A DNA stretch of 20,878 nt, taken from a virus. Positions 1 through 17,664 of the stretch are shown in pieces. Below the pieces are notes generated by a model. It worked only from the letters and a program-made list of their open reading frames with translations. It was not told the DNA's origin and searched no databases. Both the position numbers and the translations under genes were made by a program. Every line of letters begins with the position of its first letter. The first letter of the stretch is position 1. The DNA lies in the IMG/VR virus record IMGVR_UViG_3300040808_001376, positions 1-20,878 of that record. One strand, 5' to 3'.

Positions 1-3000
1 TTTATACCATACCATATCCTTTTGAGCAACACTATCATTAAATGCTTGTAGTCCTGCATAACTTGCCACGTTAACATCTTCTAACCAGTTAGGTGTATAT
101 GTACTACCACCGTTATATGCAACTCTTTGTATTGCAGGTATTCCTGCGTGATATGTTCCTGCGTCACCACGTAGTGTTTTAATAAAGTTACGTTGATGTG
201 TGGTGTTAATGCCAGCACCGTTAGGATCAGTTATTAATTCAAATGTTCTTGCAGTTTTCTTTGCCCATTCATCTGGTACTGCAAGTTGTCCGCCTACTGC
301 TCCTGCAACAACTAGTTTCAATCCGTTTACAGTTAAGGCTCTGTCAAACACTGTACCATTGTTCTCAGTAATTAATGCACCATTGTTGTATTCTGCATCT
401 GCTGGCGCACCAGGTACTGCTGGAACACCCGGTACTGCCGGTGTTCCTGCTACAAAATCAGTTGCGTCAATTCTTATACCGTTTCTGTAAACATTGTACT
501 CAATTGTATTTTCTAAAGGTTTTGACAATTCAATAGCAACTGTACTTCCATCTAATACAAAAATTTCATCTTCAAATGTATTTTCAAAAGTGTCCCAATT
601 ATCAGTATACCAACCTGATGTATCCCAACCTGCTGGGCCTGAGAAGTCAAAACTGCGTACTTCTACTCCGCCATAATCAATACCATCTAGTAACTGAGAC
701 AACTCTTTACCAAACATATTTGCGCCGGGTTGGTATGCAAATTTAATTCTATCTTCAGCACTTAATAAACTTATAGGTTTTAAATAATTTACTGTTATTA
801 CAGAATTTAGTTTAGGAGGAACATTAAATTTAATTCTGCCTCTTTCTCTATTATACGTTTTTGTTGTATCTTCAAAATTTTCATATGTATATTTGCTACG
901 TAATTGTAATACACCATCAACTAAAACTGAAACTTTCTTTAAATCAAGGTCCATCGGCCATATTAAATCGTATGTTGATCTAGCACCTGTACCTGTTAGT
1001 GTTTCTGTTTCTTCAAGTGTATCAAAAGTATAACTACCTGCGTTACGATCAAACTTCATTGCAACTTTGGTTGACCTTACTAATCCGCTACCTAAGACTG
1101 CTGTTGCCTTTGCAGGAGTGCCATCGTCGGTTTGCGATCCTTCAATTACAACAGTTGGAGCACTTGTATATCCACTTCCAGGAGTAACAATTTCAATTTT
1201 AGTTATTTTTCCATAACCGAGATATGCCTTTGCTGTTGCGCCTGTGCCACCGCCGCCTTGTATTTTAACAATTGGTTCAAATGTCCAGCCGCTGCCGCCA
1301 TCGCCGATTTTAATTTCGGTTATTTGTTGGCCTATATTGTTTTTCCAATTTTGTCTTGGATTAACAGTACTATCTAAGTTTTCATTTACAATAACATTGT
1401 CTAATATACGTGCTGTGCTTGATTCAATTCGACCTGTGACTTCATTATATGCTGGGCTTAAATCAAAGTCAGTTGTTCGAGAACTAGTATTGTCAAGAAC
1501 ATCATAATTACTTACAAACTCTCTTAGTTTAGTTTTGTAAGGTTTAAATTCTTCTACAAACTCTTGGTAACTTGACAAGTTGTCATTGTTAAAGGTAATA
1601 TCGTCTTGATTTAGTGTTCCTCTAATATGTTTTGCTTTTACAAAACTAGTTTTAAACAGCCAATCTACAGTTGGTTGTTCTGCCATTAAATATCGAAGTG
1701 AAGACATAAACAATTTATTGTATTCAACTTTTAAATTACCTATAAAAATATTATCTCTAAGAGTTTCTAAAATAGTTCTTATTTCTTGAGAAGGATTATT
1801 ATCATAGAAAGTATTATCAAATCTTCTATTATCAAATCCTACAGTATTTTCAAGGAAATTATAAAGACTTTGTTTAAGTTTTATCGTTCCATTTTGTCTA
1901 CCAATTGTTTCAAAATTTACTGTATAATCTTCAGTCTTTTCATCAGCAATTTTTCTTAATAATAACCAACCGCCAGTTCCGACATTATTAATTTTAACAA
2001 CATCGTTAATATTTAAATCTAAAGGAAAGAGTTGATAAGATCCTTCAATACTAGTTGCAATCGGAGTAAATTGATTATAGCCTTCTGCATACCAATCTAC
2101 ATATTCCCAGTATAACGATGTATCAAAACTTTGTAATGCTCGTCTATACCATTCTTTGGTACCAGTGTTGTACGAATATAAAGCCCATTTACCATTAATA
2201 TTAGCATCTGCTGTTACTAGTACTGTAAATGGTCTAACACTGATTGTTGTTTGATCGTTATATCCTATACCGTCATCAACAACAGTTGCCGATGTAATTT
2301 GTCCTAGATTATTAATTTCAACCTTAATATCTGCATCTTTGCCTGCACCAATAACTTTTATTTTAGGAGGTGCTTTATATCCACGACCCGAATTATCTAT
2401 ATTAACTCTTACAAGGTTGCCATTTACAATAACAGGAGTTAGTGCAGCAGTCTCCAATTTATTAGTACTAATATACTGTAATTCATCTACACTGTCAACA
2501 CTTAAATCCCATGTTTGAGAATTAATTGTAGGAATTTCATCTTTATACGACAATCTAGTTAAATTATATTCGTCAGTAATTAAGTTTTCTTTTAAAACTA
2601 TATTAATTCTTTCAACTGCTTGTTTTAATGCTTCAGTTCTATTAACAAATAAACTTTGCCTAGGTCTAGACTGGATGCCGTATCTCATGCTTACGGGAAT
2701 GTTTGGATCAGGAACTGCCTTACCATTACTGTCAAAACCAATTAAACTATCAAACCATTTGCGCTCTAAACTAGGATCTGGTACACTATCGCTAGATCCG
2801 TCAGCAAACAACTTATATTGATTATGATATTTTTGTGCAGTTTTGTCTAACGTGTGATATTTAATTTGCAGAACAACGTCATCACCTTGTACTAAATCGT
2901 TACAGTTATTAAGAACAAACTTGTCCTTTCCTAAGAAACTTATAAATTTATATCCAGAAGTTCTTGGATTAGAAATTAAATTTGCAATTGTAATAGTATT

Positions 3001-6000
3001 AAGTTTTCTGCCAACTGGAATAGTCCTTTTATTAATTACCCAATAGTAATATTTTCTACTAAATGTCTTGCTTATATTATCATAAGTAATTTTTGTAGAA
3101 TATCTAGTGTCGCCGTAAATCGACACTCCGCTTACTCCATTAGCAGTTCCTTCTGTTGATCCTGATAATTGATCCCAACGACTTGGTAAGAAAATACTTT
3201 CTACCCATTCGCAAATAATAATAGCAGAACTTGGTGTTAATTTATTCCAATTATCTCTTTGGAACGTTGTTGAACCTTGATAAGGATTAACAAATTTAGC
3301 TGTTTGGGTATTCCACCAAACTTTACCAACATACTTGTCAGTCCATCCTAAATCAGGTTCAACCAACGGATCAGCTATTGTTCCTGTATTATAGAACGCA
3401 GGATCAGCTGGTAACTTATAAGATATTTCTTGTTCAGCCGGACCTGGTATTTTACCTTGTATAATATCAACATAATCGATGTATGAAACAATACTATTGG
3501 TTCTCTTATTGTAAATAAGTGCTCCGTCAAGTTGTTTAATATCTACGGGCGTAATACCCTGACTTATTATACTCCATGACCTTGTATTAGGTTTCTTCCT
3601 ATAATTCAGTAAAATTCCCTTATGATCTCTGCCATCAACGTATTGTGTTGGAACACCTATATATGCATGATTGTTTACTGAATAAACATTTTCACCAAAT
3701 GTAGTTTGTGTCATTGGATAAACAAACTGCTCACCGTACACTAAAGTAGTACCAATTTTTTCATAAACATAAACTAAGCCTTTGTCTAGTTTTGTATTCT
3801 TAAATGTAGTAAACTCTTTATCAAATGTAGTTTGAATTTCATTATCTTTATCAAAAGTTGTTGGTATTTTTTGATCGCCATTTAAACTTGAAATAAGTAA
3901 ATCGTCTTTTCCAAAATCAACACTAAATCCAAATTTTTCACTTTCTTCGTTACTAGGTGATTTGATTGTTTGAGATAGGCTAAAAATGCCGTCACTATTT
4001 TGTGTCCAAATATATACTATGCCTTGATTAACTTTAACGTCATCGTTTAATGGGGCGCCGATTGCTATTTGTGTTCCATCTGGACTTAGTGATACTGACT
4101 TTGCCCAATCATCACCGTCAACTGGCGCCGGTATGACTTGTGATACTGAATATTTGTTATCAATTTCTCTATATACAACTATGTTATAGTCAGTAGTACT
4201 ATCAGCCTGTGCCAACTTTGTTGTTACGATTAATACATTCGAATCGTCACTTACATCAAAACTTTCACTAAATTCTAATATATTTTCTAACGGATCAAAT
4301 ACTGTTTCATCATAAAATGCATTTGCAGTTAAATTTGGCAAATATCCTACATAGTCAATTCTTGTAGTTAATGATGTCCAAGAATTATTTGTGCTTGAAG
4401 GAACAGCACTAGCAGCGTCAATATTAGTTGTTGCTTTCCATAAATCATTATCGTATGAGACTATATTATTTTGTCTGTATGCATATGCGTTATTAAACTC
4501 GCCCATAAACTCAGGATCTTTTCCGTAACGCCAACTAATTTTATTCCAATAAACTGTGTTTAATATTTCATTCATAGTTTCTGGAACATCTTTTAGTGCT
4601 TCATAATAATCATCTTTATAAAGAACTACATCTCCTTTAGAATATGCATTTAGTCTATATACACCAAGGAATTCTTGCTGCGGTGATACGCCGTGGCGGA
4701 ATATTTCAATTGACCCTGGCTGTGTTCTTCTACCTGCGGAATCATTTTCTGCAATGCCGCTGTCGCTTTTACTTCCTACTAATAATGTGTAGTAATTTCC
4801 AGACTGTACTATCTTAACTTTGCTACCAAACTGTCTATTATTTGCTCTATACTCAGATACAAATATATCTTTAATTCTATATGTGCCGTTATTCAATCTT
4901 CTATATATTGCAACAGCACCTTCGTTTGTTAAGTCATTAGATATTCCTAATTCCATAGCAGGAATGTTAAACACTTGTGTATAATCTTTGTTTAAACTAA
5001 ATGGAGGATTAGAACTTCTAGATATTCCCGACTCGGTCACTTCAGTAAAGAATGAATATTCTTCATCAATTATTTCAGGATTAGATACAATGTTAAAATT
5101 AGAAGTATGTTCAAAGACTACTAATTTTCCAACTAAACTAGTTTGGACGACAATATCGTTGTTTACGTCTTCTACTGTACCGCATATACGATCAGTATCT
5201 GTTGCTCCTCTTAGTACAGTATTTGCTTTTCTTCTAATTTCATATTTTCCAATATTAGACTGTTCAACAAAATCACCAGTTAATACTTTTACATACAATC
5301 TAACACTATTAAAGTTACGCTGTACATATACAACTGATGCTGTACTTGTAGTAATTGTTGTTAATGCTAATCCACCTTGTCCATCTTTTGGACTTTGTAC
5401 ATCTTCAATTATATCGTTAACTTGTGGCTGAAACGCAAAACCTGAAAAGTCAAACTCACTAAGAGTTATATCAATATATCCGTCCCATAGATCAATAACA
5501 GTATGTTGCTTGTTTAAAATATCGTAAGATAAACCGGCAGCATCTAAATTAATATCTCTATTATCAAGATTATAAAAATTAAAGGTTGGAGTGTCGCCGA
5601 TACTAAGTTGATCTGAATATTGTCTACCAACTCGTGCTATCCATTTATTACTTGGTTGATCTGCTTCAACGCCGTCTTGTCCGTCAGCAGGTGTTGGATC
5701 ACCGCGATATGACAAGTGTGATAAAAAGCTAACCCTATTTTTATTTGTTACATATAAACCAATATCACCTACTGTGGCTTGAACATTATAGTATAAATTA
5801 GTGTCACGTACTGACGATTGTAACAAAACATCGGCATACACTAACCCTCTTCCTACATCATAATAACGTGAATTATTATTATATGTAGGTGTTGCTATTT
5901 GCCAATATCCGCCAACTGCATTTGATGTAGAATATGTGTCTTCTTCGGTATAAAATCCTACAAAATCAGTATCGTCAATGTAAAGTTCGCCTGATATATC

Positions 6001-9000
6001 AAAAATACCATTTGAACTTTTAAGATATATAACTGCACTGTCGCCTTTAAATGCAACATAGGATACATCTGCACTACCTGTGTCAGTAGTTATACGTTGA
6101 CCCGCTACAGGCAATGTTACAAAAGTATCAACAAACATAATGTGGTCAATTTTTTCCAAAATAGTATGTTCGCCTGTAATAAATGCAGTATTAAGTTCTG
6201 GTATTTCTCCATCAAACGGTATATAATTATCTAAAGTCGGATATGAAAAACTGCGTTGATTCCAAAATAAATTAATCCTATCACCTAAAGATGTTCCTAA
6301 ATATTGATCTTTAGGAGCACGTACTAACATATGATCTGTGTTAGCATAATTTGTTAACCCAGGATTACCTGCAACTAATAAATTTAGTGTTGTGCTATCT
6401 GCATCTGCAGAATTTGCAATGTTAATATAAGAGTCAAATGTTGAAAAAGGCTGACTAGCTATCTCAGGTAAAATTTCTCTATTAGCTTTCCATAGACTTT
6501 CTCTATAACGTATTATATCACCCTTAACATAACTAGCGTCGGGTTGGAAATCAAACGTCTGTTGACCATTGCCGTCGTCTTTATATGCTAACTTAGTTTT
6601 AATATTACTTGCTTTTGGAATACCAACAACTAAGTATTCGCCATCAGGTGAAACGTCTATGCTTTTACCAAAGTCGCAACTAACTGGATTAAACAAATTA
6701 GTTTCATCGATAGTTATTTCTTGTGATAAATTTAAATTAGCTACATCTCTAGATCTTCTGTAATATGAAATTTGTCCGTTACCTGCATTAGGCGCTGAAA
6801 CAAAGACATTATTATTATTACTTGTTACTGCAATACTATCAGAAAACCCTTGATCTGTACTGTCGTAATCTGCTGGATTTTCAATTGTTTGTTGGTTAGA
6901 ATATGCAGGACTGTTTTCTAATACTGCCCAGTCATCGTCATACTTGTCAATCCAGAGCCTTTGTCCTTCATATAAATTTTGTCCAATTACAGTGTTAATT
7001 TCTGGGACTGTAGGAATCCTAACAGAAATTAATCTAACTATAAGAAACGATTCGCTGTCAAATACATTAATGTCGTTATCTAACGGTATTTCAATTACTA
7101 TTTTGTCTAATAATACAGCAGCTACTTTATAAAGACCATTAAGGTCATATTTATTTGCAGCTTTAAATCCAATAAAATCTTCGACATCGACTAAATTATC
7201 AGCCCATGCGTCTGTAGTAATTTCAACTCTAATATATCCTGGAGTTAAATCTCTATTTACAGGAATATTTACAACCTTAGTTAATTCAATACAATTTATA
7301 TTTGGTGTTGTTAGCTGGGCAACATCCCAATCATCATTAGCAGTATTTGTAATCCAAACTGTTTGTCCTAAACCTATTTGGTTTATATTAACACCAGTTA
7401 AAGTTGAAATGTCTCCTGCAAGGAAATTGACATCTTCATTTCTTACATATCCGCCTGTTTTAACAAATTCTCTATCTAATACTTTTGTAGGAAACGGAGT
7501 ATGTACATAACCTTCTGGTTTGCTGTAAACTTCGTTTGGTAATATTCTGTAATGGTTGTCAACATTTGTAGGTGGTAATGTTTTTACAAGTTCAAATGCT
7601 TGAGAAGTCTCTACAAACTTTTTGTCATTAAGTTGAAATTCAACTTGCTGTACATCTTCTGTTGAACCATATCGTCCTGCCTGTATTGCCCATTCTTCGT
7701 AAAATTCTAAAGTATCTTGGGTGTTGCCTAATGCGTCAAACAAATTAGTAAACACTCGCATAGTACCTTTGTCAGAAATAGCACCTCTGTAAAATTTATA
7801 TTGGCTTACATCGTCGTTGATAATATTAGCAAGATATTGGCGTTTTTGATATCCAAACAAGTGTTGCGCCATTTTTTGTTGTTCACTATCAAAGTTATCA
7901 GAGTCTAAATCATAAAAATCTGCAAATTGATTAATTCTATAATCAAAGTTTGTTATTAATTCAGATACTGGTTTCTCATTTAATCTGTACCAAAAATTAG
8001 GATTAAATTTTTCTTCGCCAATAACATTTCTTAATGCTACATAATAAAACTGTTTGTATTTTACAAGATCGCCAATTGTATAGTCTTTCCATTTTTCCCA
8101 ATCACCGTACTTTGCATCGTCAAATATAAATCCTGGAATATTTAATCCACCATTCCAGTTATCAGATCTATATCCGTTTACACGTATTCTTTCTTGTCTG
8201 TATCCTGTGCTAGGATTATATATAGTATCATTGAATACTGTTTTATTATCTAATAGTACAACATGTTCTTTTTGAACTAATGGTAATGATGCATGATATA
8301 ATCCGTCATCGGTATTTGTTATTTCAATCCCAAAAGAATTTTCATTTCTTAATAAACTACTAAAATCGGAATCTAAAAATTCTCCAGAAGCTTTGAGAAT
8401 TGAATATCCGTAAAATGCATCTTTTATATCATCAACTACATGGTAATCTTTCTTAAATTTTAAAAAGTTTGCGCCCGGACTTAATGCAATTAATGCTGTT
8501 GCAGCCCAGCCTTGAGTTGTCCAGTACATAAATTCTTTAGTTGAAGTATTCCAATTTTCTACAACGTTTGCTTCTGAATCAAATTTATCAAAATTAAACC
8601 CTATATCTTCTAAACGTGCAGCATATCCCAACAGAAAATCAACAGTGTCTTGTACTGTATTAAATTTTGCTCCATAACTTAGTTTTTTAACGTTTGTTCT
8701 TCTAAAATCTTTTTTAAACTTTGCTGTCCTGCCGCCTTCTATAGGCAGTGCTGGTAGTTTAACTGTGTTAGCATCAAACGTTTTATCTATACTTCCGCCA
8801 GTAATAAAATTATTAACAGCTCTAAAATAATTATTTCCAGCAAATATTACTTCGCCTGATCTGTATTCAGCATTGGATGCAAATTCAGATGCTCTTACAT
8901 TTCTGCCGCCGACTGTAACTTCGTAAAAAGAAGATCCAGGCACTGTTTCATAATATTCAAAGTAAGGCTTTTCTATACTATATCCTCTAAGTACATATCC

Positions 9001-12000
9001 TACGTCTGCCTTTTCTATAATAACACCACTATATGTTGCCAATTCTGTTGCACTACTTGTGTTTAGAAAAACTTGATAATTTTCTTGGGGTATAAAAATG
9101 CCGTCACGTGTAAGAGATTGTGTTGGCGATCTGCTGTCTAAAATTAAATTAAAGTTTTCTTTGCTTGTAAATCCAGCAATTTTTAATCCTATTTGATTAT
9201 CTAGGTTTTTCAAATCATTTTGATAGCTATTATATACAGTTAGAATATCACTAGCAACTAAGTTATAAATGTAATTTACAAAACCGGATGTCATTGTTCT
9301 TAAAGTAGACTCGTTAGTATTAGGCACTAAAAAGTCTTTAATTACTATTTGCTTATTAGTTTCAGTATATGTCCATTGACCTACTAAATTCCTAGTTATT
9401 CTAGAAACATCAAAACCTAATCCCATTGTTTTTGCAGGATTATTTACTAGCATTGCTTTCATAACAGCAAATGGATATTCAGAACTTTTGCGCCATGCAT
9501 TTTCTACGGGGCTTTGATCACCAAATTTAAAATTTCTTACAGTACGATTTAAAACAAAATCTTGTACGTAGCCTGATCGCAATGGAGAAAGTAAAGAACC
9601 ATCTTGACTAACTGGTAAATGTCTTGTTATGCCAGGTCGAGCAACTTTTTCATCTACTGTAGTATTATTTGGATTTGCTATTCTACCTTCTTCAATGTTT
9701 TTCCACAATATTAAATTATCGCTTGTATATGGAGCGGGACCATATACTGTATTCCACCAAAACGGTTTTGAACTAAAGCCTTGAATTTCCCAAGGATGGC
9801 TGTGGGGACGATCTGTATCGTATGCATGTTGATATATGCCTCTCCAAAATCCTGGATTCTCATTACCGTTTGGAGAGTTTGTATCTGAGTAGTTAAATGT
9901 CCAATCATTATTTCTATCATAAAAAGTATTATTACTAAAATTTTGATTGTTTAAACTTGTTTGTAACCACTGTTGAAAGTCAGTTAGTAAAGCATTGTTT
10001 ATATCCTGGCGGCTAAAGTCATTTGTTTTATATTCGCCGCCAATAAAATGATTAACATCTAATCTGTTGTTAGAATATTCAACTTTAATATTATTATAAA
10101 TTCTTTTTTCAAATTCAAGTAGCAAATGATCTCTATAATCTTTATATGCTTTAATATAACTTCCGTCGTGTCCTTTTACAAATGCAACACCTATTGGATA
10201 TTCATTAATTTCAACATCGTCGTTTCCTAAAATAACTTGTGTGCTATTAATATTAGGAATGTATAATAATGTGTTTAAACCATTAAATGTTATAGTGTGA
10301 GCTTTTCCATCTGTCGACATAGATTTTGCAACTGCTTTAGATGTGTAAATTGGATACGTCCATCCAATTGCTTCTGTACTAACGTTTTCTTTTGATGTGG
10401 CTTCAATCTGTCCGTATATTTTATATGGACCGGCGACATTAGGATCTAAAGGATATTTAGGTTGTACGGTATCATCAATTACTACCATTGGATGATACTT
10501 AGGATACAGACCTAACTTTGATGGTGTAGGAGCTATAAAAGATCCGTCCGAAGATTCATATTCATATATTTCAATTATGTCGTTTTCTTTTTGGTTAGCA
10601 GTAATTGTAATATAACCTAGATTATTAAAATTATAATCTTTACCATGTGTTAAAAGAGATTGGTTTAAATAGACCAATAATCCTTTTGGCTGTAGTGAGT
10701 CTAATGTAAAACTATCTGTTAAAGGGTAATCTTTGGTTCTTGAATCTAATACAGCATATTCAATTCTGTTAGATGAACCATAGGGTATCATATCTGAGAA
10801 ATAAAACGGTTGTGTCTTAACTTTATCTTTATTAATAGTAGACAACACTAAGTCTACATGAGTCTTCGTTGCTCCGTCAAACCCTAAGTTAGTAGCAGTT
10901 TCAATAAAATTTCTCTTATATTTTGCATATTCAGTTTTAGCATATTTTACTGCTTTAACAATATTAAAGTCTTTGCTTGTTATGTGGTAAAGTGGCAAAT
11001 TCAGTGGGCCACTATGTTTTACAAAACGTTTACCGTAACGATCTAAGTCGCCTAAATCTCTTAAGTTGTTAGGTCCTAAAAATTTACCAGTAAAATTTGG
11101 TAAATCTTCTAACATACTATCTACATGATCGATTACTTCGCCTAACGTAAATTGTGTAATGTCTTCATTTAACGGATTTCTTTCTAAGTTATATGGAAAT
11201 TCGTAATACCCGTTTGAATTTTTTACTTTCTTAGAATCTGTTTTAATTTTAACAATATCATTAACAGCTAAGTCTGTTGTAAATTGTATTTGAGCAAGTT
11301 TGTTGTCTGTGTTAATAATATAATCAGTATTTTTTAATTTTATTTTGTTGTTAACAAATACTGCAACTTTTAAATCAGTAATTGAAGATGATTCATCGTA
11401 TACATCTATATCAAAGTTATTAAATTTTAAATCTGTTGCTGTATATTCCTTTACTACAAACTGTTTAGATTTTTGAGGTGTGCTACTAAAACCATTTGCA
11501 TAATCAAATGTAGATAAAGTTTTATACTTTTTCAAGTAACCAGCATTAATCGATCCGTTAATTACAGAATTATTTAATTCATATTCAAACGTATCATTTA
11601 ACAAATCAAAACTAAACAATATGTCACCTGAATTATCAATATTTCTATATGATAGCGGAAATCCGAGTTCAGTATCTACATTACCCTCGCCTACTGCATA
11701 TGAAAATAACTTAGTTCCTTTAAAGTCTGTTTGAGGATAGTATACTGGATCACTGTAACTATTACCAGCATTATCGCAAACTTCAAATAACGGCTGCTGA
11801 TTAGTTTTTGTTTTTTCTTGTGCTATTACCCATGCATCGCCGTGGTAGTGATAACTTTTACCTGCATTTACTAAACCTTGTGTAACTAAAATAGTTTCAA
11901 GATCAATTGGATTTGTGTCCGAAGTTTCAATTAAAGATATTTGCCTATTGTTTCCAATATCAACATATTTGACTTTGAAGATTTTGCCGCTAACTCGTAT

Positions 12001-13629
12001 GTCAGTGTCAGCAGTAAATAAGATTCTCATACCTTCAGCTAAATCAATACCGTCAATATTGTATCCTATTTGGCCTTCGATTGTGCTAAAAACATCAGTA
12101 GTATAAGTGTCAATCAAATCAACATCTTGTTTAGCACTTGCACCAAAGTTATTAAGTTTTAGACCAGCTTCAAATTCAATAATAGGACGCAATGCTCTTT
12201 TTGACTCGTCTAAGTTTTCAGATATATTATTATATTCATAACTTGCTAAAATTACATCTTTATGGTGCCAACAATTATACCTGCTCCATGCATTCCTATC
12301 TTGACTTGCTCTATTAATAACTATATAATCTTTATTTGCAGCATAGTTTCCTGCATTTGAAAAAGGTAAAGTATCAAATTCTTCGCTATCAAAAGGAACA
12401 GTCTTATTTTCACTATAGACAGCAGGAATAATTAAATCTTGATCTTTAATTAATTTAATCTTGTCGCCAACACCTTCAACATACCAATTGTTTTGATTAT
12501 AAAATGCTGGCTCAGTATCACCTTGGAATCGAATTTGCATTCCGTTAGATAATTCAACGCCATTTGCACTTTTATATGTTTTCTTACCTAAAATTTCATC
12601 AGTAACATTTAAAAAACTATTTTCTTCAATGTCATATATTTTAAATAAACCACTAGTGTCGATTTCATTTTTGCTGATATAATATAATCTATCAGGAGCG
12701 TTTGCAGGAATAGTAAATTCTATTGTTCCTTTTTCAATATAAGCAACTGCTACTTCTTCGCCATCATCTCCTAACTTACGAATACCATCCGGGTATAATG
12801 TTGAAACATTATCGTCAGCTTCAAATGTTACACTGCCACTAGACGGTAATACAATATATTCGCCTTGGTCATATTCATTGCCATATAATACTGCATCAAA
12901 AAGACCTTCGCCTCTAATTCCTTCATTACCAGCAGTTAATACTGCACTGCCTGGTGTAAAATTTCTAGTAATTGCAAATGCAAGAGGGTGTCCAGGTGTA
13001 TTAATTTCAAAGCGGTATGTTTGACCTCTGTACAGTTTTAGTGACGGGTTTCTTGTTAATCCATCATTAAACACATATGCAATATTGTCTCCTTGATCTT
13101 CTGTAGTAACTGTATAAGTACTAACAATCTCTCTACTTTGACCTCGCACAGGAATACTTAAAGGACCGGTCGGCAACCAATAATATTCACGGAAGTTTAC
13201 AAATTTATCCCAATCAATATTTGGGTTCCAGCCGTATGTTTCTTGTGAGTTTATCCTACTATGATTATCTGTATTTGCGCCGAATACATTAAGTTGTCCC
13301 ATATAATCATTATAGTCTTTATAAAAAGTTACATTATCATAATTGTCTTTAATAACAACAGCTGGTTCAAATTGATAATCTTCTCTATTTTTACTAACAT
13401 CTGCAACATAGTTGTCAGTTGGTTTATATGCTTTTGCTGTTTTTCTGCCGTAATAGCCATTTATTTTTTCTGCCACGCCGGGCTGTATAAGTTGATCAAG
13501 TGTTGCTTGTAAAAACTTTTTGTTAGCCTTTGTTCTAAAGAATGCAGGTAAAAAATCAGATGCTGTGATTTTATTATCTTTTCCGGGCACCGGAAGTGGA
13601 GATACATTTTGATCGTCATTATATGCCAT
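1..13629 (-). CDS. Giant baseplate/tail structural protein, gp7 position (partial, 3' end off left edge)
   Basis: The frame starts with ATG at 13629 and stays open to base 1, giving 4543 residues without a stop (about 510 kDa); the C-terminus is missing. The start overlaps the gp6 stop as TAATG, with a strong GGAGGA 11 bases upstream. Visible parts, by residue: 132-151 an aromatic signature (YGWNPNIDWDKF); 184-335 cupredoxin-like; 593 YHYH; 1274-1303 containing RPHSHPWE and YGPAPYTS; five CBM5/12-like repeats between 1588 and 3086; seven FG-GAP-like motifs between 2262 and 3311; 3624-3663 containing VPDPNIPV; 4029 KPYKTK; GxGY repeats at 3742-3800 and 4104-4180; a PAVPG linker near 4396. I recognise this style from giant virion proteins of marine T4-like phages. 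Its place after gp6 matches T4 gp7 (1032 residues), but I cannot show gp7 homology by eye. I infer a structural role in the baseplate periphery, perhaps with surface-glycan contact. The coding call is near certain; the specific function is not. Confidence 0.93.
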   Translation of the reverse strand, partial: MAYNDDQNVSPLPVPGKDNKITASDFLPAFFRTKANKKFLQATLDQLIQPGVAEKINGYYGRKTAKAYKPTDNYVADVSKNREDYQFEPAVVIKDNYDNVTFYKDYNDYMGQLNVFGANTDNHSRINSQETYGWNPNIDWDKFVNFREYYWLPTGPLSIPVRGQSREIVSTYTVTTEDQGDNIAYVFNDGLTRNPSLKLYRGQTYRFEINTPGHPLAFAITRNFTPGSAVLTAGNEGIRGEGLFDAVLYGNEYDQGEYIVLPSSGSVTFEADDNVSTLYPDGIRKLGDDGEEVAVAYIEKGTIEFTIPANAPDRLYYISKNEIDTSGLFKIYDIEENSFLNVTDEILGKKTYKSANGVELSNGMQIRFQGDTEPAFYNQNNWYVEGVGDKIKLIKDQDLIIPAVYSENKTVPFDSEEFDTLPFSNAGNYAANKDYIVINRASQDRNAWSRYNCWHHKDVILASYEYNNISENLDESKRALRPIIEFEAGLKLNNFGASAKQDVDLIDTYTTDVFSTIEGQIGYNIDGIDLAEGMRILFTADTDIRVSGKIFKVKYVDIGNNRQISLIETSDTNPIDLETILVTQGLVNAGKSYHYHGDAWVIAQEKTKTNQQPLFEVCDNAGNSYSDPVYYPQTDFKGTKLFSYAVGEGNVDTELGFPLSYRNIDNSGDILFSFDLLNDTFEYELNNSVINGSINAGYLKKYKTLSTFDYANGFSSTPQKSKQFVVKEYTATDLKFNNFDIDVYDESSSITDLKVAVFVNNKIKLKNTDYIINTDNKLAQIQFTTDLAVNDIVKIKTDSKKVKNSNGYYEFPYNLERNPLNEDITQFTLGEVIDHVDSMLEDLPNFTGKFLGPNNLRDLGDLDRYGKRFVKHSGPLNLPLYHITSKDFNIVKAVKYAKTEYAKYKRNFIETATNLGFDGATKTHVDLVLSTINKDKVKTQPFYFSDMIPYGSSNRIEYAVLDSRTKDYPLTDSFTLDSLQPKGLLVYLNQSLLTHGKDYNFNNLGYITITANQKENDIIEIYEYESSDGSFIAPTPSKLGLYPKYHPMVVIDDTVQPKYPLDPNVAGPYKIYGQIEATSKENVSTEAIGWTYPIYTSKAVAKSMSTDGKAHTITFNGLNTLLYIPNINSTQVILGNDDVEINEYPIGVAFVKGHDGSYIKAYKDYRDHLLLEFEKRIYNNIKVEYSNNRLDVNHFIGGEYKTNDFSRQDINNALLTDFQQWLQTSLNNQNFSNNTFYDRNNDWTFNYSDTNSPNGNENPGFWRGIYQHAYDTDRPHSHPWEIQGFSSKPFWWNTVYGPAPYTSDNLILWKNIEEGRIANPNNTTVDEKVARPGITRHLPVSQDGSLLSPLRSGYVQDFVLNRTVRNFKFGDQSPVENAWRKSSEYPFAVMKAMLVNNPAKTMGLGFDVSRITRNLVGQWTYTETNKQIVIKDFLVPNTNESTLRTMTSGFVNYIYNLVASDILTVYNSYQNDLKNLDNQIGLKIAGFTSKENFNLILDSRSPTQSLTRDGIFIPQENYQVFLNTSSATELATYSGVIIEKADVGYVLRGYSIEKPYFEYYETVPGSSFYEVTVGGRNVRASEFASNAEYRSGEVIFAGNNYFRAVNNFITGGSIDKTFDANTVKLPALPIEGGRTAKFKKDFRRTNVKKLSYGAKFNTVQDTVDFLLGYAARLEDIGFNFDKFDSEANVVENWNTSTKEFMYWTTQGWAATALIALSPGANFLKFKKDYHVVDDIKDAFYGYSILKASGEFLDSDFSSLLRNENSFGIEITNTDDGLYHASLPLVQKEHVVLLDNKTVFNDTIYNPSTGYRQERIRVNGYRSDNWNGGLNIPGFIFDDAKYGDWEKWKDYTIGDLVKYKQFYYVALRNVIGEEKFNPNFWYRLNEKPVSELITNFDYRINQFADFYDLDSDNFDSEQQKMAQHLFGYQKRQYLANIINDDVSQYKFYRGAISDKGTMRVFTNLFDALGNTQDTLEFYEEWAIQAGRYGSTEDVQQVEFQLNDKKFVETSQAFELVKTLPPTNVDNHYRILPNEVYSKPEGYVHTPFPTKVLDREFVKTGGYVRNEDVNFLAGDISTLTGVNINQIGLGQTVWITNTANDDWDVAQLTTPNINCIELTKVVNIPVNRDLTPGYIRVEITTDAWADNLVDVEDFIGFKAANKYDLNGLYKVAAVLLDKIVIEIPLDNDINVFDSESFLIVRLISVRIPTVPEINTVIGQNLYEGQRLWIDKYDDDWAVLENSPAYSNQQTIENPADYDSTDQGFSDSIAVTSNNNNVFVSAPNAGNGQISYYRRSRDVANLNLSQEITIDETNLFNPVSCDFGKSIDVSPDGEYLVVGIPKASNIKTKLAYKDDGNGQQTFDFQPDASYVKGDIIRYRESLWKANREILPEIASQPFSTFDSYINIANSADADSTTLNLLVAGNPGLTNYANTDHMLVRAPKDQYLGTSLGDRINLFWNQRSFSYPTLDNYIPFDGEIPELNTAFITGEHTILEKIDHIMFVDTFVTLPVAGQRITTDTGSADVSYVAFKGDSAVIYLKSSNGIFDISGELYIDDTDFVGFYTEEDTYSTSNAVGGYWQIATPTYNNNSRYYDVGRGLVYADVLLQSSVRDTNLYYNVQATVGDIGLYVTNKNRVSFLSHLSYRGDPTPADGQDGVEADQPSNKWIARVGRQYSDQLSIGDTPTFNFYNLDNRDINLDAAGLSYDILNKQHTVIDLWDGYIDITLSEFDFSGFAFQPQVNDIIEDVQSPKDGQGGLALTTITTSTASVVYVQRNFNSVRLYVKVLTGDFVEQSNIGKYEIRRKANTVLRGATDTDRICGTVEDVNNDIVVQTSLVGKLVVFEHTSNFNIVSNPEIIDEEYSFFTEVTESGISRSSNPPFSLNKDYTQVFNIPAMELGISNDLTNEGAVAIYRRLNNGTYRIKDIFVSEYRANNRQFGSKVKIVQSGNYYTLLVGSKSDSGIAENDSAGRRTQPGSIEIFRHGVSPQQEFLGVYRLNAYSKGDVVLYKDDYYEALKDVPETMNEILNTVYWNKISWRYGKDPEFMGEFNNAYAYRQNNIVSYDNDLWKATTNIDAASAVPSSTNNSWTSLTTRIDYVGYLPNLTANAFYDETVFDPLENILEFSESFDVSDDSNVLIVTTKLAQADSTTDYNIVVYREIDNKYSVSQVIPAPVDGDDWAKSVSLSPDGTQIAIGAPLNDDVKVNQGIVYIWTQNSDGIFSLSQTIKSPSNEESEKFGFSVDFGKDDLLISSLNGDQKIPTTFDKDNEIQTTFDKEFTTFKNTKLDKGLVYVYEKIGTTLVYGEQFVYPMTQTTFGENVYSVNNHAYIGVPTQYVDGRDHKGILLNYRKKPNTRSWSIISQGITPVDIKQLDGALIYNKRTNSIVSYIDYVDIIQGKIPGPAEQEISYKLPADPAFYNTGTIADPLVEPDLGWTDKYVGKVWWNTQTAKFVNPYQGSTTFQRDNWNKLTPSSAIIICEWVESIFLPSRWDQLSGSTEGTANGVSGVSIYGDTRYSTKITYDNISKTFSRKYYYWVINKRTIPVGRKLNTITIANLISNPRTSGYKFISFLGKDKFVLNNCNDLVQGDDVVLQIKYHTLDKTAQKYHNQYKLFADGSSDSVPDPSLERKWFDSLIGFDSNGKAVPDPNIPVSMRYGIQSRPRQSLFVNRTEALKQAVERINIVLKENLITDEYNLTRLSYKDEIPTINSQTWDLSVDSVDELQYISTNKLETAALTPVIVNGNLVRVNIDNSGRGYKAPPKIKVIGAGKDADIKVEINNLGQITSATVVDDGIGYNDQTTISVRPFTVLVTADANINGKWALYSYNTGTKEWYRRALQSFDTSLYWEYVDWYAEGYNQFTPIATSIEGSYQLFPLDLNINDVVKINNVGTGGWLLLRKIADEKTEDYTVNFETIGRQNGTIKLKQSLYNFLENTVGFDNRRFDNTFYDNNPSQEIRTILETLRDNIFIGNLKVEYNKLFMSSLRYLMAEQPTVDWLFKTSFVKAKHIRGTLNQDDITFNNDNLSSYQEFVEEFKPYKTKLREFVSNYDVLDNTSSRTTDFDLSPAYNEVTGRIESSTARILDNVIVNENLDSTVNPRQNWKNNIGQQITEIKIGDGGSGWTFEPIVKIQGGGGTGATAKAYLGYGKITKIEIVTPGSGYTSAPTVVIEGSQTDDGTPAKATAVLGSGLVRSTKVAMKFDRNAGSYTFDTLEETETLTGTGARSTYDLIWPMDLDLKKVSVLVDGVLQLRSKYTYENFEDTTKTYNRERGRIKFNVPPKLNSVITVNYLKPISLLSAEDRIKFAYQPGANMFGKELSQLLDGIDYGGVEVRSFDFSGPAGWDTSGWYTDNWDTFENTFEDEIFVLDGSTVAIELSKPLENTIEYNVYRNGIRIDATDFVAGTPAVPGVPAVPGAPADAEYNNGALITENNGTVFDRALTVNGLKLVVAGAVGGQLAVPDEWAKKTARTFELITDPNGAGINTTHQRNFIKTLRGDAGTYHAGIPAIQRVAYNGGSTYTPNWLEDVNVASYAGLQAFNDSVAQKDMVWYK
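394..453 (-). repeat. Pro/Gly/Ala linker (about residues 4393-4412)
   Basis: The stretch AGTPAVPGVPAVPGAPADAE has two PAVPG units in a row. It is probably a flexible or extended linker, or a loop on a beta domain, in the giant protein. Confidence 0.5.
1090..1320 (-). repeat. Glycine-rich GxG[YW] repeat pair (residues 4104-4180)
   Basis: Two tandem units are seen: GDGGSGWTFEPIVKIQGGGG, then GYGKITKIEIVTPGSGY followed by TSAPTVVIEG. Each has a short Gly turn, an aromatic, a Pro and a beta strand ending in I-x-G. They look like a small beta-rich repeat domain in the C-terminal part of the giant protein. Confidence 0.55.
2230..2406 (-). repeat. Glycine-rich GxGY repeat (residues 3742-3800)
   Basis: The first unit is SGRGYKAPPKIKVIGAG. 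The second begins after LGQITSATVVDDGIGY. The G-x-G-Y-x(3)-P-x-[VI]-x-[VI] pattern recurs near residues 4104-4180 in the same protein, and from memory in other phage structural proteins. Confidence 0.5.
4372..4656 (-). repeat. Tandem pair of CBM5/12-like repeats between propeller motifs (residues 2992-3086)
   Basis: Copy one (2992-3031) reads RLNAYSKGDVVLYKDDYYEA and closes with YWNKI. Copy two (3044-3086) has NAYAYRQNNIVSYDNDLWKA and closes with SWTSL. Both match the aromatic-GD-Y-aromatic-A-W layout of chitin/cellulose-binding modules; the second has QNN in place of the GD. The pair fills most of the gap between FG-GAP-like motifs 3 and 4, as if inserted in a loop. Confidence 0.5.
6421..6540 (-). 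repeat. CBM5/12-like repeat (residues 2364-2403)
   Basis: The segment contains ASYVKGDIIRYRESLWKA followed by a Pro-containing stretch, matching Y..GD.V.Y....W.A. It lies just after the second FG-GAP-like motif, at the start of the long spacer before the third. The closing Trp of the pattern is not obvious here. Confidence 0.45.
6901..7380 (-). repeat. Repeated GQ-x-x-W-I...DDW-x-V unit (residues 2084-2243)
   Basis: Two related units precede the propeller. The first has GLGQTVWITNTANDDWDV (from residue 2086) and the second EGQRLWIDKYDDDWAVLEN (from about 2221). Each could be a small beta module. They lie about 130 residues apart and lead into the first FG-GAP-like motif. Confidence 0.4.
7981..8094 (-). 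repeat. CBM5/12-like repeat (residues 1846-1883)
   Basis: The segment opens with KWKDYTIGDLVKYKQFYYVA and ends with NPNFWYRL. It follows the chitin-binding CBM5/12 pattern: an aromatic, then Y..GD.V.Y....Y.A, then a closing W. This is the clearest of the copies in the giant protein. A weaker copy lies at residues 1588-1617 (EYRSGEVIFAGNNYFRA). Confidence 0.55.
12625..13080 (-). other. Cupredoxin-like domain in the giant protein (residues 184-335)
   Basis: The segment reads as a plastocyanin-like beta-sandwich: LKLYRGQTYRFEI followed by PGHPLAFAI at its start, a glycine-rich middle, and FTIPANAPDRLYYI then SGLFKIYDI at its end. In copper-binding relatives the last part carries Cys, His and Met ligands. 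Here that stretch (YYISKNEIDTSGLF) has none, so copper binding is unlikely and the fold would be structural. The assignment rests on pattern memory, not on a profile search. Confidence 0.5.
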
Positions 13630-16600
13630 TAGTAACTATATCCTCCGCTGTTACCGCTATTATTACTACTATTGCTACTACTATTGCTACTGCTATTGTT
13701 GGTGCTACTGCTACTGCTATTAGTTGTATTAGATACGCTCGATACTATACCAGATACTACTGTAGTTGCTGCTGAACTAATTACGTTGCCTGATGATTGT
13801 ATTTGTGTTGCTGTAATTTCATCTATAGTTTCAATATCGCCAACTGTTGCTGCACTTGCAAAAATTTCATCTGGTTCGCTTTTTATTTCAAATAAACTAC
13901 CAAACGACTGAGTTGTTTGTCTTGGAACTATTAAAAAGCTAACAAGTTTTGGTGATAATTGATTCATAATATATGCACTAAGTTCTTGGAAGTAAAATGT
14001 TTCTCCAAAATCCCAATTTTCAATATCAAAAAACTTGTTTATTGCATCGATAATATCTGCTTTTAATTCATTATCGTTAATAACTAAATTTTTGTTTCTA
14101 ACTATTTTGAATTTAACTTGTAAGCTCGGCCTTGCTTTGCTTCCAAAAAGTATTTTATATTTTACTGGATGATAAATGATATCATCACTAATACTTTTAA
14201 TTCTGTTAATAGAATTGCCATAATTTCTTAGCAATTCATCATTACTTGGTGGCAACGGTTGAGTTAGAAGGTCACCTGTAATATATTGTTTAACTTGTTC
14301 GTTATAAGTTTTTGTTAATATGTAAGTATCTATAATATTGCTCGAACTTGGGTCAATTCTAAAATTGCCATCAGCAACATGAACATAATGGAACTTTAAA
14401 TTAGAACGTCCAAAATATGCTTTATAGTCTGTATTAATTTGTGTATTATTCAATTGCTTATTTAATTTTCTAAATATTTGTTCATCTTGAAGATAAAATA
14501 CTTGTCCTTCGGTGCGAGAACTATAAGGTGCTATTGCAGCTTCATTTTGTACAATAACAATTTCATTGTTTAAGTTATTAAAAAACTTGTAATCTTCTAC
14601 TCCATCAGATGTAGTATATTTCTTTTGAAATATTACTTTCTCACCGATAGAAACAGAATCAGCAAGTTCGCCAACTATTTGTTCAAATATATCTGGATCG
14701 TCAAATACTCCGTCGTCGTCTAAATCAATGAATTGGATTTGTATTTTTCTACTATCTAAATATCCTTCACTATCTTTATATTGATCTGTAATTGTCCAAG
14801 AATAATCTCTTGTAAACGGTGTTAGTTCTCCTGGTTTACGATTAATATTTAGAATATCAATTTTATCACGCACAGTTTTTCCTGTAGAAGGATCATAAAT
14901 TTTATCTGCATTATCAAAGAAGAAACGTATTTCATCTTCACTTTCCATTACATATCTTGTCTGTCGATATGTAACAGTATATTTTTGACCGTCAGTTTTA
15001 AAGTACAACATCCAACTAGCATCTAAATTATCACCTGATATGTCGCCTGCTTTACCTGTTGCAAAATTACTTATAGTGTTAACATCTTCGCCTACTACTA
15101 TTTTCCACTGTCTATCGTATATGTCATATCTTAATGCAAAGTTTCTTAATTCAAATGCTTGATCAATAAGCTGCGTTTTTACATCATTAATTAGTCTTAA
15201 GGAATATTTTGGTATTACTTGCTCAACTAAAGCACCACTATCAATATAGTCATTAATAATAATGCCTGCTGCGCTATCAGGATTTATTGATGTGCCGTCA
15301 TCAGTAACTGACATTACTTTGACCCACTTATACATTGTTTTGCCTAAATGTTCATTACCATCATCGTCCATTAATGTGCCATTTGGCATAAAATGTTTTC
15401 CTGCTGGCGGAACAAACTTTATCATTGTACCCGTTTCTAATAATCTTAAACTATTAGCAGTAAAACTTCCAACAGCATATGCATTTTCACTTACATCTTG
15501 AAGAATTCCAGAATAAGAATTTGTTTCTGTTGTTACAGCTTTCCAAGAAGCATTTAAGTCACTAACAATAATTTTTGGATATTGCGATAGATAAAAGTTT
15601 TTACTATTTGGATACTGAATAATCTTTTCAATTATATTATAAATCGCGCCTTCGATATCTGTTTGTGTTGAAAAAGTAAAAGTTTGCTTTTCTTCATAAT
15701 TTTCTTTGTAAATAACTCCGTCATCTACAAATAAACTAGTGTTTGAATATTTTCCACTAGCATCCTTTAAATCAAAATACCTACTTATACCGCTAGAAAT
15801 TCTATTTGTACTTTTAGTTTTAATAATTTCTTGACTTACTGCAAGAGGACCAATATTATAATCTTCTCCTGTAACTAATCTATCTTGTGTATAATAAGTT
15901 GCAGGAGCATTTGCTTTTATTTCTTCATTAGATTCTGTTGCTGTGCCGTTACTAACAGTAGATGTTAATTTTAAGCCAAGTGTTAATGTTTCTTTGCTAC
16001 CTGTTCTTGTTTGATAAGGTATTTCTATTTGTACAAGTCCTATTGCACTAGGTGTAATAATTGCTCTTGTTCCAGAACTTGTTCTATAATAAACTTTAAA
16101 ATCTCCTGCTGGCAAATTACCAAAAACGCCATCACTAAAGACTAGATTAATCCTATCGCCAATTCTCGTTGTTGCTGCAAATACATCTCTAGTACTGTTA
16201 AACAAACTATTATATACAACATTGTTTCCTTCTACTGAGTCAATTTTAGTCCAAGCTGCATTTTCAAATCCTCCGGAATTCAAACCGTATAACCAAATAT
16301 CAGTATTATTGATATTCTCTGCATCAATAGCAATTGATTGATTTGGAGTAGGATTTGTAATTGAAAATTTTCCGCTGTCTAACTTTCCCTGTCGGAAAGC
16401 CATAAAAAATCCTGTGTTAGCACTGCCAGCACCTTGTCCGTCATCTCTAAATAACATAGCAGGGTTGTTGCCTGGGAGCGGAGGTTCTTCAACAAGTGCA
16501 TCTCCTATAATATCTGTACTTACAACTTCAAATCTTGTGTTAACGCCTTCAATTCTTTTTGTAAATGGGTAAATTGCCGAAGCTGTATTAGTAGAATTAA

Positions 16601-17165
16601 ATTTATATTTTTGTGTTGAGACGCCGGCAATAGATGCCGACTTTAAAGGATTACCAACAGAGTTCTGTACAGGCAACGCTGAATTCATTATTTTTAAAAA
16701 CTGTTCAAAATAACTTGAATTAGTTTGGTCATTCCATTTTACTGTAATTCCTGCTAAATTTAATCCAGTACTATCTACAACATTTTCTGTAGTCTTAATT
16801 GTATTAATTTTCATCAAACCATTAGCTGCTTGATTACGTCTTGGATTATATGCAAGCATACGAGCTAGACGTAAGACGCTTTCTCTACGTTCTGCTGTTT
16901 CAAGAAAATTTTCTCTTGCATTTAGATCAATGCGGAATGATAGGTTTTGCCCAAGGAAAGCAATCATATCAATCAGTGCAAGATATTCACTAGATTCAAT
17001 ATAGTCGTTAAAATCTTCTGGATAATTTTGACGCAGATAATTAATCATTGTGCGTCTTAAATTGTCAAAATCGTATGATTGAAAATCAGCGTTACGATAT
17101 GATTGATAAATTCTTTTCCAGTCCTCAGCTACTAATAACCGTGACTGCCTATCAGTTGCAGACAT
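13629..17165 (-). CDS. 6: Baseplate wedge protein gp6
   Basis: This is the gp6 / baseplate-J-like wedge protein. In T4, gp6 dimers form the inner ring that ties six wedges together around the hub. The first 115 residues carry the family signature: SYDFDNLRRTMINYLR, SSEYLALIDMIAFLGQNLSF, then ARENFLETAERRESV and LARMLAYNPRR. The family C-terminal part, with SFLIVPRQTTQSFGSLFEI and DEIFASAATVGDIETIDEIT, ends near residue 1120. A further 50-odd residues are rich in Ser and Asn. At 1178 residues it is much longer than T4 gp6 (660), with the extra length mainly in the middle. The start at 17165 has AAGGA 7 bases upstream. It follows gp25 after 58 bases and overlaps the giant gene by one base. Confidence 0.93.
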   Translation of the reverse strand: MSATDRQSRLLVAEDWKRIYQSYRNADFQSYDFDNLRRTMINYLRQNYPEDFNDYIESSEYLALIDMIAFLGQNLSFRIDLNARENFLETAERRESVLRLARMLAYNPRRNQAANGLMKINTIKTTENVVDSTGLNLAGITVKWNDQTNSSYFEQFLKIMNSALPVQNSVGNPLKSASIAGVSTQKYKFNSTNTASAIYPFTKRIEGVNTRFEVVSTDIIGDALVEEPPLPGNNPAMLFRDDGQGAGSANTGFFMAFRQGKLDSGKFSITNPTPNQSIAIDAENINNTDIWLYGLNSGGFENAAWTKIDSVEGNNVVYNSLFNSTRDVFAATTRIGDRINLVFSDGVFGNLPAGDFKVYYRTSSGTRAIITPSAIGLVQIEIPYQTRTGSKETLTLGLKLTSTVSNGTATESNEEIKANAPATYYTQDRLVTGEDYNIGPLAVSQEIIKTKSTNRISSGISRYFDLKDASGKYSNTSLFVDDGVIYKENYEEKQTFTFSTQTDIEGAIYNIIEKIIQYPNSKNFYLSQYPKIIVSDLNASWKAVTTETNSYSGILQDVSENAYAVGSFTANSLRLLETGTMIKFVPPAGKHFMPNGTLMDDDGNEHLGKTMYKWVKVMSVTDDGTSINPDSAAGIIINDYIDSGALVEQVIPKYSLRLINDVKTQLIDQAFELRNFALRYDIYDRQWKIVVGEDVNTISNFATGKAGDISGDNLDASWMLYFKTDGQKYTVTYRQTRYVMESEDEIRFFFDNADKIYDPSTGKTVRDKIDILNINRKPGELTPFTRDYSWTITDQYKDSEGYLDSRKIQIQFIDLDDDGVFDDPDIFEQIVGELADSVSIGEKVIFQKKYTTSDGVEDYKFFNNLNNEIVIVQNEAAIAPYSSRTEGQVFYLQDEQIFRKLNKQLNNTQINTDYKAYFGRSNLKFHYVHVADGNFRIDPSSSNIIDTYILTKTYNEQVKQYITGDLLTQPLPPSNDELLRNYGNSINRIKSISDDIIYHPVKYKILFGSKARPSLQVKFKIVRNKNLVINDNELKADIIDAINKFFDIENWDFGETFYFQELSAYIMNQLSPKLVSFLIVPRQTTQSFGSLFEIKSEPDEIFASAATVGDIETIDEITATQIQSSGNVISSAATTVVSGIVSSVSNTTNSSSSSTNNSSSNSSSNSSNNSGNSGGYSY
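13632..13739 (-). repeat. 6: Ser/Asn codon repeat, C-terminal tail of gp6
   Basis: Residues 1143-1178 of gp6 are almost all Ser, Asn and Thr, including SSSSSTNNSSSNSSSNSSNN, and end in GNSGGYSY. The DNA is a loose trinucleotide repeat of AGT, AGC and AAT codons. Such tracts can change length by slippage. The tail is probably disordered. Confidence 0.8.
13641..13646 (-). promoter_or_regulatory. Ribosome binding site of the giant gene inside gp6
   Basis: GGAGGA lies 11 bases upstream of the ATG at 13629. It forms the two Gly codons of the gp6 C-terminal SGGYSY. With the TAATG stop/start overlap it points to translational coupling between gp6 and the giant protein. Confidence 0.7.
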
Positions 17166-17223: not shown

Positions 17224-17664
17224 TTAACTTAATAGACCGTTTTCTTTATCAAATCTAAAACGTAACTGATCTTGAATTTTGTAGGGTAAAAATATAAGGG
17301 ATATATCAACTTGTATGCCTTGCTCGTATGTATCAACTATAATTTGATCTATTTTGGTTCTAGGATCATAGTTAACAATACGAGTAACATCATTAACTAC
17401 TGCTTCTTGTACTTCTTTTGTAAACGGTTCAAATAAGATATCCCATATAATAGTTCCAAATGTAAGATCGCTTAATTTTTCACTCTGTCTAATATGAAAA
17501 TGATTTATTAAATCTTGCTTAATTAAGTCATAGTCGTACAATCCAAAGTTTTTTGCATCAGGTGAAACTGTAGAAAATCCTCTATAGGTTCTACCGTCAA
17601 GTGATTTTTTAGAGTTTGGCTGTACTGTTACACGTTTATATAGATTTTTTTCTAATTGACTCAT
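17224..17664 (-). CDS. 25: Baseplate wedge protein gp25
   Basis: This is a gp25 / P2 gpW / TssE-type protein that joins the wedge core to the first sheath ring in contractile systems. At 146 residues it is slightly longer than T4 gp25 (132). Family features are DLIKQDLINHFHIRQSEKL near residue 45, FGTIIWDILFEPFT near 70 (with the conserved Glu-Pro), and VTRIVNYDPR near 93, followed by two predicted beta strands. The start at 17664 is 15 bases after the gp5 stop, with only a weak AGGG site 10 bases upstream, so translation may be helped by read-on from gp5. The order gp5, gp25, gp6 resembles P2 V-W-J. Confidence 0.93.
   Translation of the reverse strand: MSQLEKNLYKRVTVQPNSKKSLDGRTYRGFSTVSPDAKNFGLYDYDLIKQDLINHFHIRQSEKLSDLTFGTIIWDILFEPFTKEVQEAVVNDVTRIVNYDPRTKIDQIIVDTYEQGIQVDISLIFLPYKIQDQLRFRFDKENGLLS

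Follow-up and report, generated by a model that had tools for sequence, protein, structure and literature searches.

Can a ring-shaped protein domain be opened twice by other domains and still be one ring? This question is raised by the window analysed here, the 20,878-base virus record IMGVR_UViG_3300040808_001376 (positions 1 to 20,878), which comes from an environmental jumbo-type phage and whose main genes lie on the minus strand. One of these genes encodes a giant virion/baseplate protein (1..13629, minus strand; open reading frame 13629-1, 4543 residues, open at the window edge). A first-pass annotation had described 3595-6852, that is, residues 2260-3345 of this minus-strand frame, as an integrin-like FG-GAP propeller split by two large insertions, and the conversion between the two numberings is correct. 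We consider it very probable that residues 2241-3357 (3559..6909, minus strand) form one closed seven-bladed beta-propeller of the FG-GAP_2 type carrying two inserts, with the insert boundaries as placed below. This prediction draws on an AlphaFold2 model, a comparison with the Protein Data Bank (PDB), blade profiles and the sequences of relatives.

The predicted ring and its repeats

The AlphaFold2 input consisted of 43 aligned sequences, namely the window and 42 relatives (alignment A2; the locus L018, cut at its contig end, was excluded). The resulting propeller model has a pLDDT (predicted local distance difference test) of 84.2 and a pTM (predicted template modelling score) of 0.61, and adding 2200 to the model numbering gives the protein numbering. 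In the model, the blades are consecutive and mostly four-stranded. A strand at 44-50 precedes blade 1 (65-105), blade 2 is made of two parts (123-137 and 704-724), blade 3 covers 737-780, and blades 4 to 7 cover 917-967, 978-1023, 1033-1103 and 1114-1157.

All blades are encoded on the minus strand. AlphaFold2 strands and the sequence motif described below place blade 1 with its preceding strand at 6715..6900 (residues 2244-2305), the first half of blade 2 at 6616..6678 (2318-2338), blade 4 at 4129..4287 (3115-3167), blade 6 at 3721..3942 (3230-3303) and blade 7 at 3559..3699 (3311-3357). Blade 3 lies at 4687..4842 (2930-2981), placed by strands 737-743, 746-752 and 774-780 and by its motif, and blade 5 at 3961..4113 (3173-3223), placed by AlphaFold2 and the Pfam family FG-GAP_2. 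The second half of blade 2 is assigned to 4855..4923 (2903-2925) from strands 704-711 and 717-724 and from low-probability matches to the profiles of blades 1 and 5.

The model was compared by VIA-align with 972 solved chains pre-selected by Foldseek. The best match is integrin alphaM (7usl_A; Z 30.0 over 353 residues at 3.1 A), and this alignment covers model residues 41-1153, spanning both inserts. Together with the AlphaFold2 strands, it bears out, at the level of prediction, the earlier expectation that seven blades close into a single ring. Of the 972 chains, 969 reach Z 5 or more and 956 reach Z 8 or more. By Foldseek E-value the top chain is DDB1, at a template modelling (TM) score of about 0.1, with integrins appearing from E 1.1e-7. 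We do not claim kinship with integrins; WD40 rings score Z about 28, and the integrins' lead of about 2 Z units is too small to carry it. The fold itself says just propeller, and the label FG-GAP is used because of the sequence (PF14312).

At the sequence level, seven FG-GAP-like motifs had been listed, at F2262, F2320, F2934, F3120, W3175, F3233 and F3311, and each is found at its residue. Their spacings are 58, 614, 186, 55, 58 and 78, a period broken by two long gaps, as had been proposed. Each motif was scored with a position-specific scoring matrix built from the other six and ranked over 4486 protein positions; those at 2262, 2320, 3120 and 3175 each rank 1 of 4486, and that at 2934 ranks 4, so that most of the motifs exceed what chance would give.

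The blades were also compared with one another by profile-profile alignment, using non-overlapping alignment slices and 13 control slices, for which the highest probability was 5.2. Blades 1, 4 and 5 and the first half of blade 2 are linked to one another at probabilities of 51-96, and blade 6 is linked to blade 5 at 76-87. Blade 7 is linked to blade 2 alone (51-55), the only partners of blade 3 are blades 1 and 2, both weak (22-39), and the non-overlapping slices give no link between blades 6 and 7. When the 5486-column profile of the whole protein was scanned, the blade 1 profile recovered, ahead of any other match, all six other blades and also the part of blade 2 that lies beyond the gap of 614 residues. 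The other profiles are less complete: that of blade 2 misses blade 6, that of blade 5 misses blade 7, those of blades 4, 6 and 7 recover fewer blades, and several matches are of low probability.

A Pfam FG-GAP search had been suggested as a check, with a divided outcome. FG-GAP_2 (PF14312) matches one stretch, at blade 5, with 27.4 bits against a cut-off of 23, and is found in 12 of the 16 members of alignment A1 at E 0.01 or better; FG-GAP (PF01839) has no match in the window record. Judged by sequence, then, the repeats are of the FG-GAP_2 type. The calcium-binding loop of integrins has the motif D-x-D/N-x-D/N-G-x-x-D/E, which occurs in 0 of the 43 rows of alignment A2. For the window propeller, PHROGs gives no family at E 0.01 and NCBIfam no match at 0.1, and tblastn of residues 2201-3399 against the phage collection found no match.

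Inserts, relatives and history

Homologous loci, numbered here with an L, show how the ring looks without the inserts. The motif spacings are 56, 64, 53, 49, 58 and 107 in L176 and 54, 72, 48, 53, 57 and 78 in L177; as far as blade 6, insert-free homologues thus keep a period of 48-72 residues, with a last step of 107 or 78. Because the gaps of 614 and 186 residues shrink to 64 and 53 in one locus and to 72 and 48 in the other, we take them to be true insertions into one propeller. The proposal that two large insertions split a single propeller is therefore upheld, as L176 and L177 carry the same repeats without either insert. FG-GAP_2 (cut-off 23) scores 49.1 bits in L176, 28.6 in L182, 22.5 in L184 and 14.3 in L177; by sequence, the L176 propeller matches solved structures at E 0.42 or worse.

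Insert 1 occupies 4924..6615 (minus strand; residues 2339-2902, about 564 residues) and insert 2 occupies 4297..4686 (minus strand; residues 2982-3111, about 130 residues), and both are gone in L176 and L177. According to AlphaFold2, insert 1 splits blade 2, and insert 2 follows once three strands of blade 3 have been laid down. The picture of whole domains held within loops stands, and that of inserts lying between blades has to be amended, with insert 1 interrupting blade 2 itself.

The content of both inserts is modular. Insert 1 holds a module like those of carbohydrate-binding module (CBM) family 5/12 at 6457..6582 (about residues 2350-2391), followed by two copies of a beta module at 5851..6456 (2392-2593) and 5041..5850 (2594-2863), all on the minus strand. 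The copies were delimited by aligning one with the other and by the model, and the module is tandemly duplicated (hhalign probability 98, E 2.6e-13, 118 columns). Folded alone from 68 sequences (alignment A4, which took 68 of 88 listed stretches), insert 1 reaches pLDDT 92.3 and pTM 0.85. Its comparison with the PDB gave no clear solved fold (best Foldseek E 0.024; best VIA Z 5.9 over 82 residues). Among the predicted viral proteins of BFVD it has 12 weak matches at E 0.001 or better, with TM-scores of 0.15 or lower, and the named ones include VriC-type, virion-associated, fibre and sheath proteins, wedge proteins lying beyond E 0.001. Sequence matches to solved structures fall in the CBM-like part (7b5h, 2rts), and part of insert 1 weakly matches 8d4o (E 0.078); a single 54-residue module searched in the same way gave nothing.

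Insert 2 contains two CBM5/12-like modules on the minus strand, the first at 4534..4677 (residues 2985-3032; whole-protein profile scan) and the second at 4360..4524 (3036-3090), which is the best Pfam CBM_5_12 stretch. CBM_5_12 scores 22.1 bits in the whole protein (cut-off 26.2) and 30.1 bits when residues 2201-3399 are scanned alone, and it is found in 16 of the 16 members of alignment A1 at E 0.01 or better. CBM5/12-like modules also lie outside the propeller, at lower probability (residues 1582-1616 and 1843-1897).

To see the range of forms, a backbone query without the propeller (residues 1147-2015) was used, which selected the best 80 of 592 relatives; the 80 loci kept per search are the best of longer lists, and proportions among them are not natural frequencies. 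The propeller profile matches 73 of the 80. Five of the other seven (L125, L149, L150, L174 and L186) leave the contig before or within the propeller, and the remaining two, L182 and L184, show FG-GAP repeats by reading. Blade hits were obtained in 66 of the loci selected by the backbone. The large module is present in 52 of them and missing in 14, and 10 of these 14 carry at least one CBM-like module in the propeller region. For example, L171 has spacings of 121, 126, 51, 57 and 79 from blade 2 onward, and the places of its long gaps hold short CBM5/12-like modules alone. Extra stretches occur in other loops, between blades 1 and 2 in L013, and both in blade 7 and after insert 2 in L020 and L021. 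L184, labelled 'none' (that is, with neither a CBM-like nor the large module), nevertheless shows two long gaps, one of 137 and one of 216 residues. In blade 5 of L012 and L014, another stretch of about 100 residues is inserted, which by eye does not resemble a CBM. Read from their sequences, related phages carry the propeller with fewer, different or no inserts, and the ring has the look of a natural mounting plate that can take up whole domains in its loops.

In the known relatives checked outside this clade, the propeller is missing. Profile mapping finds the backbone on both propeller sides in PA5oct, Atu_ph07, RaK2, PBECO4, Vibrio 2.275 and SCTP-2, and the propeller profile has no match in these six known jumbo-phage relatives. 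The propeller place holds 96 residues in RaK2, 108 in PBECO4, 125 in Vibrio 2.275, 95 in PA5oct and 266 in SCTP-2; in Agrobacterium phage Atu_ph07 (L105, 13915-18447) it holds 1,511 other residues, with matches to PHROGs of wedge and of virion structural proteins. Judged against the six relatives checked, the propeller is specific to the window's clade, and its place in the giant protein is a possible insertion hotspot. The compact propeller of L176 gave two weak tblastn matches in the phage collection, both in separate genes. One is an 'FG-GAP repeat' gene downstream of the tape measure in an uncultured tailed phage (L190, 7782-9203; LR797314.1), weakly like the L176 propeller; the other encodes a large hypothetical protein of Sinorhizobium phage Phosso (L191, 4650-11092; 22.7% identity, E 2e-5), far from the Phosso wedge genes.

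A backbone tree of 74 rows was used to order these forms. Rows without a blade-6 hit were excluded save L182, whose state 'none' was set by reading, and some rows are near-identical or identical (L177/L178, L151/L153 and several others). A branch with full support separates the six propeller-free phages from all other rows; as the root falls between these phages and the clade, a propeller gain here and a loss there are indistinguishable. The insert states need 5 changes on the tree. L176, with neither module, is sister to L164, with CBM-like modules only, so modules are gained or lost over short distances.

The same tree bears on a plausible alternative, to which we give somewhat less than an even chance: the propeller of the clade ancestor already had the inserts and the compact forms arose later by loss, which would make the inserts old parts of the ring rather than exchangeable cargo. 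It would explain why, in the rooted quick tree, the rows that carry the large insert branch off at the base and the others are nested, and the sister pair of L176 and L164 agrees with it. The order is not firm, however, as alternative groupings are not rejected. A single clade of rows without the large module has p-AU (approximately unbiased test) 0.484, and 0.446 in a 37-row subset; placing the rows without it on one side with the outgroup has p-AU 0.559 in the subset and a log-likelihood 4.26 above the free tree. The subset test used 37 of the 74 rows and a simpler model, and a better tree than the quick one exists (one constraint gave a higher likelihood); the quick tree also came with long-branch warnings. 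A single gain and a loss of the large module are both compatible with these values.

Baseplate setting and proposed role

The complete giant protein has 5486 residues in L002 and L023, and the L002 homologue is identical to the window protein at 4541 of 4543 positions. It matches PHROG 10938, a virion structural protein, at E 1.6e-293 in 6 stretches. This PHROG is filed under 'head and packaging'; gene order puts the giant protein in the baseplate wedge. Upstream, all on the minus strand, lie a gp6-like baseplate wedge subunit at 13629..17165 (PHROG 10646, E 5.2e-287; PHROG 219, 9e-24), a gp25-like wedge subunit at 17224..17664 (PHROG 261, 1.6e-9; PHROG 43, 9.3e-9; Pfam GPW_gp25 24 bits, below the cut-off of 27.2) and a gp5-like hub/spike at 17680..20157 (VgrG3-like C-terminal domain PF21277, 7.5e-31; PHROG 13211, 4.7e-51). 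The C-terminus of this hub is of the VgrG3-like kind known from the type VI secretion system, and a glycoside hydrolase 46 match in it is below cut-off. Downstream of the giant gene, L023 encodes a 200-residue protein and then a collar-domain protein (Collar domain 52.9 bits; Gp10_C 19.5 bits, below the cut-off of 27). In PA5oct, an annotated T4-like gp10 sits in the position matching this collar-domain gene, and the giant homologue gp355 carries a note of electrospray ionisation tandem mass spectrometry (ESI-MS/MS).

Because of this gene order and the mass-spectrometry note on a homologue, we assign the protein to the baseplate, and it probably takes the place of T4 gp7. It is a giant wedge-type baseplate protein, and a tail-fibre identity is not supported. 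Its residues 1-2200 match 60 phage records, and 38 of the 40 listed measure 284-490 kb. Two contigs with a relative of the giant gene (L101 and L102, one with a title naming TaraRedSea) are binned in a Neomarinimicrobiota metagenome-assembled genome, where they are probably phage in the bin; this is at most a weak hint at a host.

Taken as a whole, the account we favour, with some reservation, is that of a wedge-protein propeller whose loops hold domains for contact at the baseplate periphery. The rigid ring would stand at this periphery as a stable platform, its loops would carry exchangeable modules outward, and the modules would contact the host surface or neighbouring baseplate or fibre proteins. 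Such an arrangement would resemble the alphaI domain in integrin alpha chains and the baseplate propellers of PhiKZ gp131C and phi11 Gp45. The rim position, the exposure of the inserts and the host or fibre contact are inferred, and a contact or display role of propeller and inserts, taken by itself, has close to an even chance. A stronger version is unlikely: the ring at the baseplate rim and the integrin-alphaI arrangement would be convergent, with loops at which interchangeable recognition domains dock, each gained or lost whole. If true, phages of this clade could adjust their attachment while the wedge supporting the ring stays as it is.

Several observations weigh against this account. 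The same large insert is kept in 52 of the 66 sampled loci, which fits a structural role too. An aromatic pair is the ligand-binding feature of carbohydrate-binding modules of family 5/12, and in the alignment the consensus of the insert 1 module lacks the pair that the chitinase 2rts has (YW), an argument against simple chitin binding, which is not to be taken for granted; the alignment covered the insert 1 module, and the insert 2 modules were judged by eye. As for the ring, the pTM of 0.61 applies to the whole model, so the pose of the inserts on it is not fixed. Its closure rests on the reported structural alignment, and blade 3 has three strands assigned, strand 786-790 being counted with the first CBM-like module. 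The motifs at 3233 and 3311 rank 71 and 36 of 4486, and the motif alone does not secure either; the sequence ties blades 3, 6 and 7 weakly to the others. Finally, no sequence relation to T4 gp7 was detected: a 14-row profile aligned by hhalign with the one T4 protein reached a probability below 1, and the gp7 Pfam domains stay below cut-off in the giant protein (Gp7_5th 17.7 bits against 27).

Part of this evidence suits a purely structural explanation, credible without being likely, in which propeller and inserts are an enlarged spacer or inter-wedge brace making protein-protein contacts, with no host ligand. The retention of the large insert and the missing aromatic pair count in its favour, and it can also draw on the similar modules outside the propeller and on the weak likeness of insert 1 to phage virion proteins in BFVD. 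On the other hand, some relatives lack the inserts and the six known jumbo phages lack the propeller, and neither is thus generally needed for such a baseplate. The remaining explanation, two or more unrelated beta domains with a chance resemblance to FG-GAP, could appeal to the two weak motifs, the weak ties of blades 3 and 7 and the one Pfam stretch that passes, and is very improbable and rejected given a single-ring match spanning both inserts, blade self-similarity with low controls and homologues with a regular period up to blade 6.

As predicted here, the phage baseplate protein is one of nested domains: the giant wedge-type protein encloses a propeller, which in turn encloses further domains. 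Forms with no, few and several inserts offer a ready comparison of how a contact surface might be rebuilt without losing assembly. In addition, FG-GAP_2 repeats together with CBM-like modules provide a sequence handle with which parts of this kind could be located in giant proteins that so far bear just the annotation virion structural or hypothetical.

Comparison with known systems

A close parallel in layout is the integrin alpha chain, in which, according to passages of PMC11659783, a whole ligand-binding alphaI domain is inserted between blades 2 and 3. The alphaM, alphaL and alphaX chains share the seven-bladed ring with the phage protein and are its best solved fold match. The two differ in the site and the nature of the inserted domains: alphaI sits between blades 2 and 3, whereas the first phage insert sits inside blade 2 and the second in blade 3, and the phage inserts consist of a beta module and CBM-like modules, on a ring in which none of the 43 rows has the calcium-loop motif.

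Among phages, excerpts of PMC4901313 describe a seven-bladed propeller at the baseplate periphery for PhiKZ gp131C and a five-bladed baseplate propeller with a proposed N-acetylglucosamine (GlcNAc) cavity for phi11 Gp45. These are likewise beta-propellers at the baseplate of a tailed phage. They are receptor-binding-type proteins, for which the excerpts of PMC4901313 describe no nested insertions, whereas the ring of the window is part of a giant wedge-type protein.

The wedge setting itself has its own precedents. In PA5oct, Atu_ph07, RaK2 and PBECO4, as in the window, the gene preceding the giant gene is annotated as a baseplate wedge subunit, whereas the gp6-like match of SCTP-2 lies elsewhere in the genome. 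T4 gp7 is, in the portion of PMC3004832 used here, a peripheral baseplate wedge protein present in six copies. Like the giant gene, its gene comes directly after gp6; unlike it, gp7 has 1032 residues, against 5486 for the giant protein. In the open-licence PubMed Central literature, we recognised no paper dealing with a myovirus baseplate that carries an FG-GAP propeller. Phage baseplate propellers and propellers with inserted domains are both known already; what is unusual here is their nesting and the natural series of forms that goes with it.

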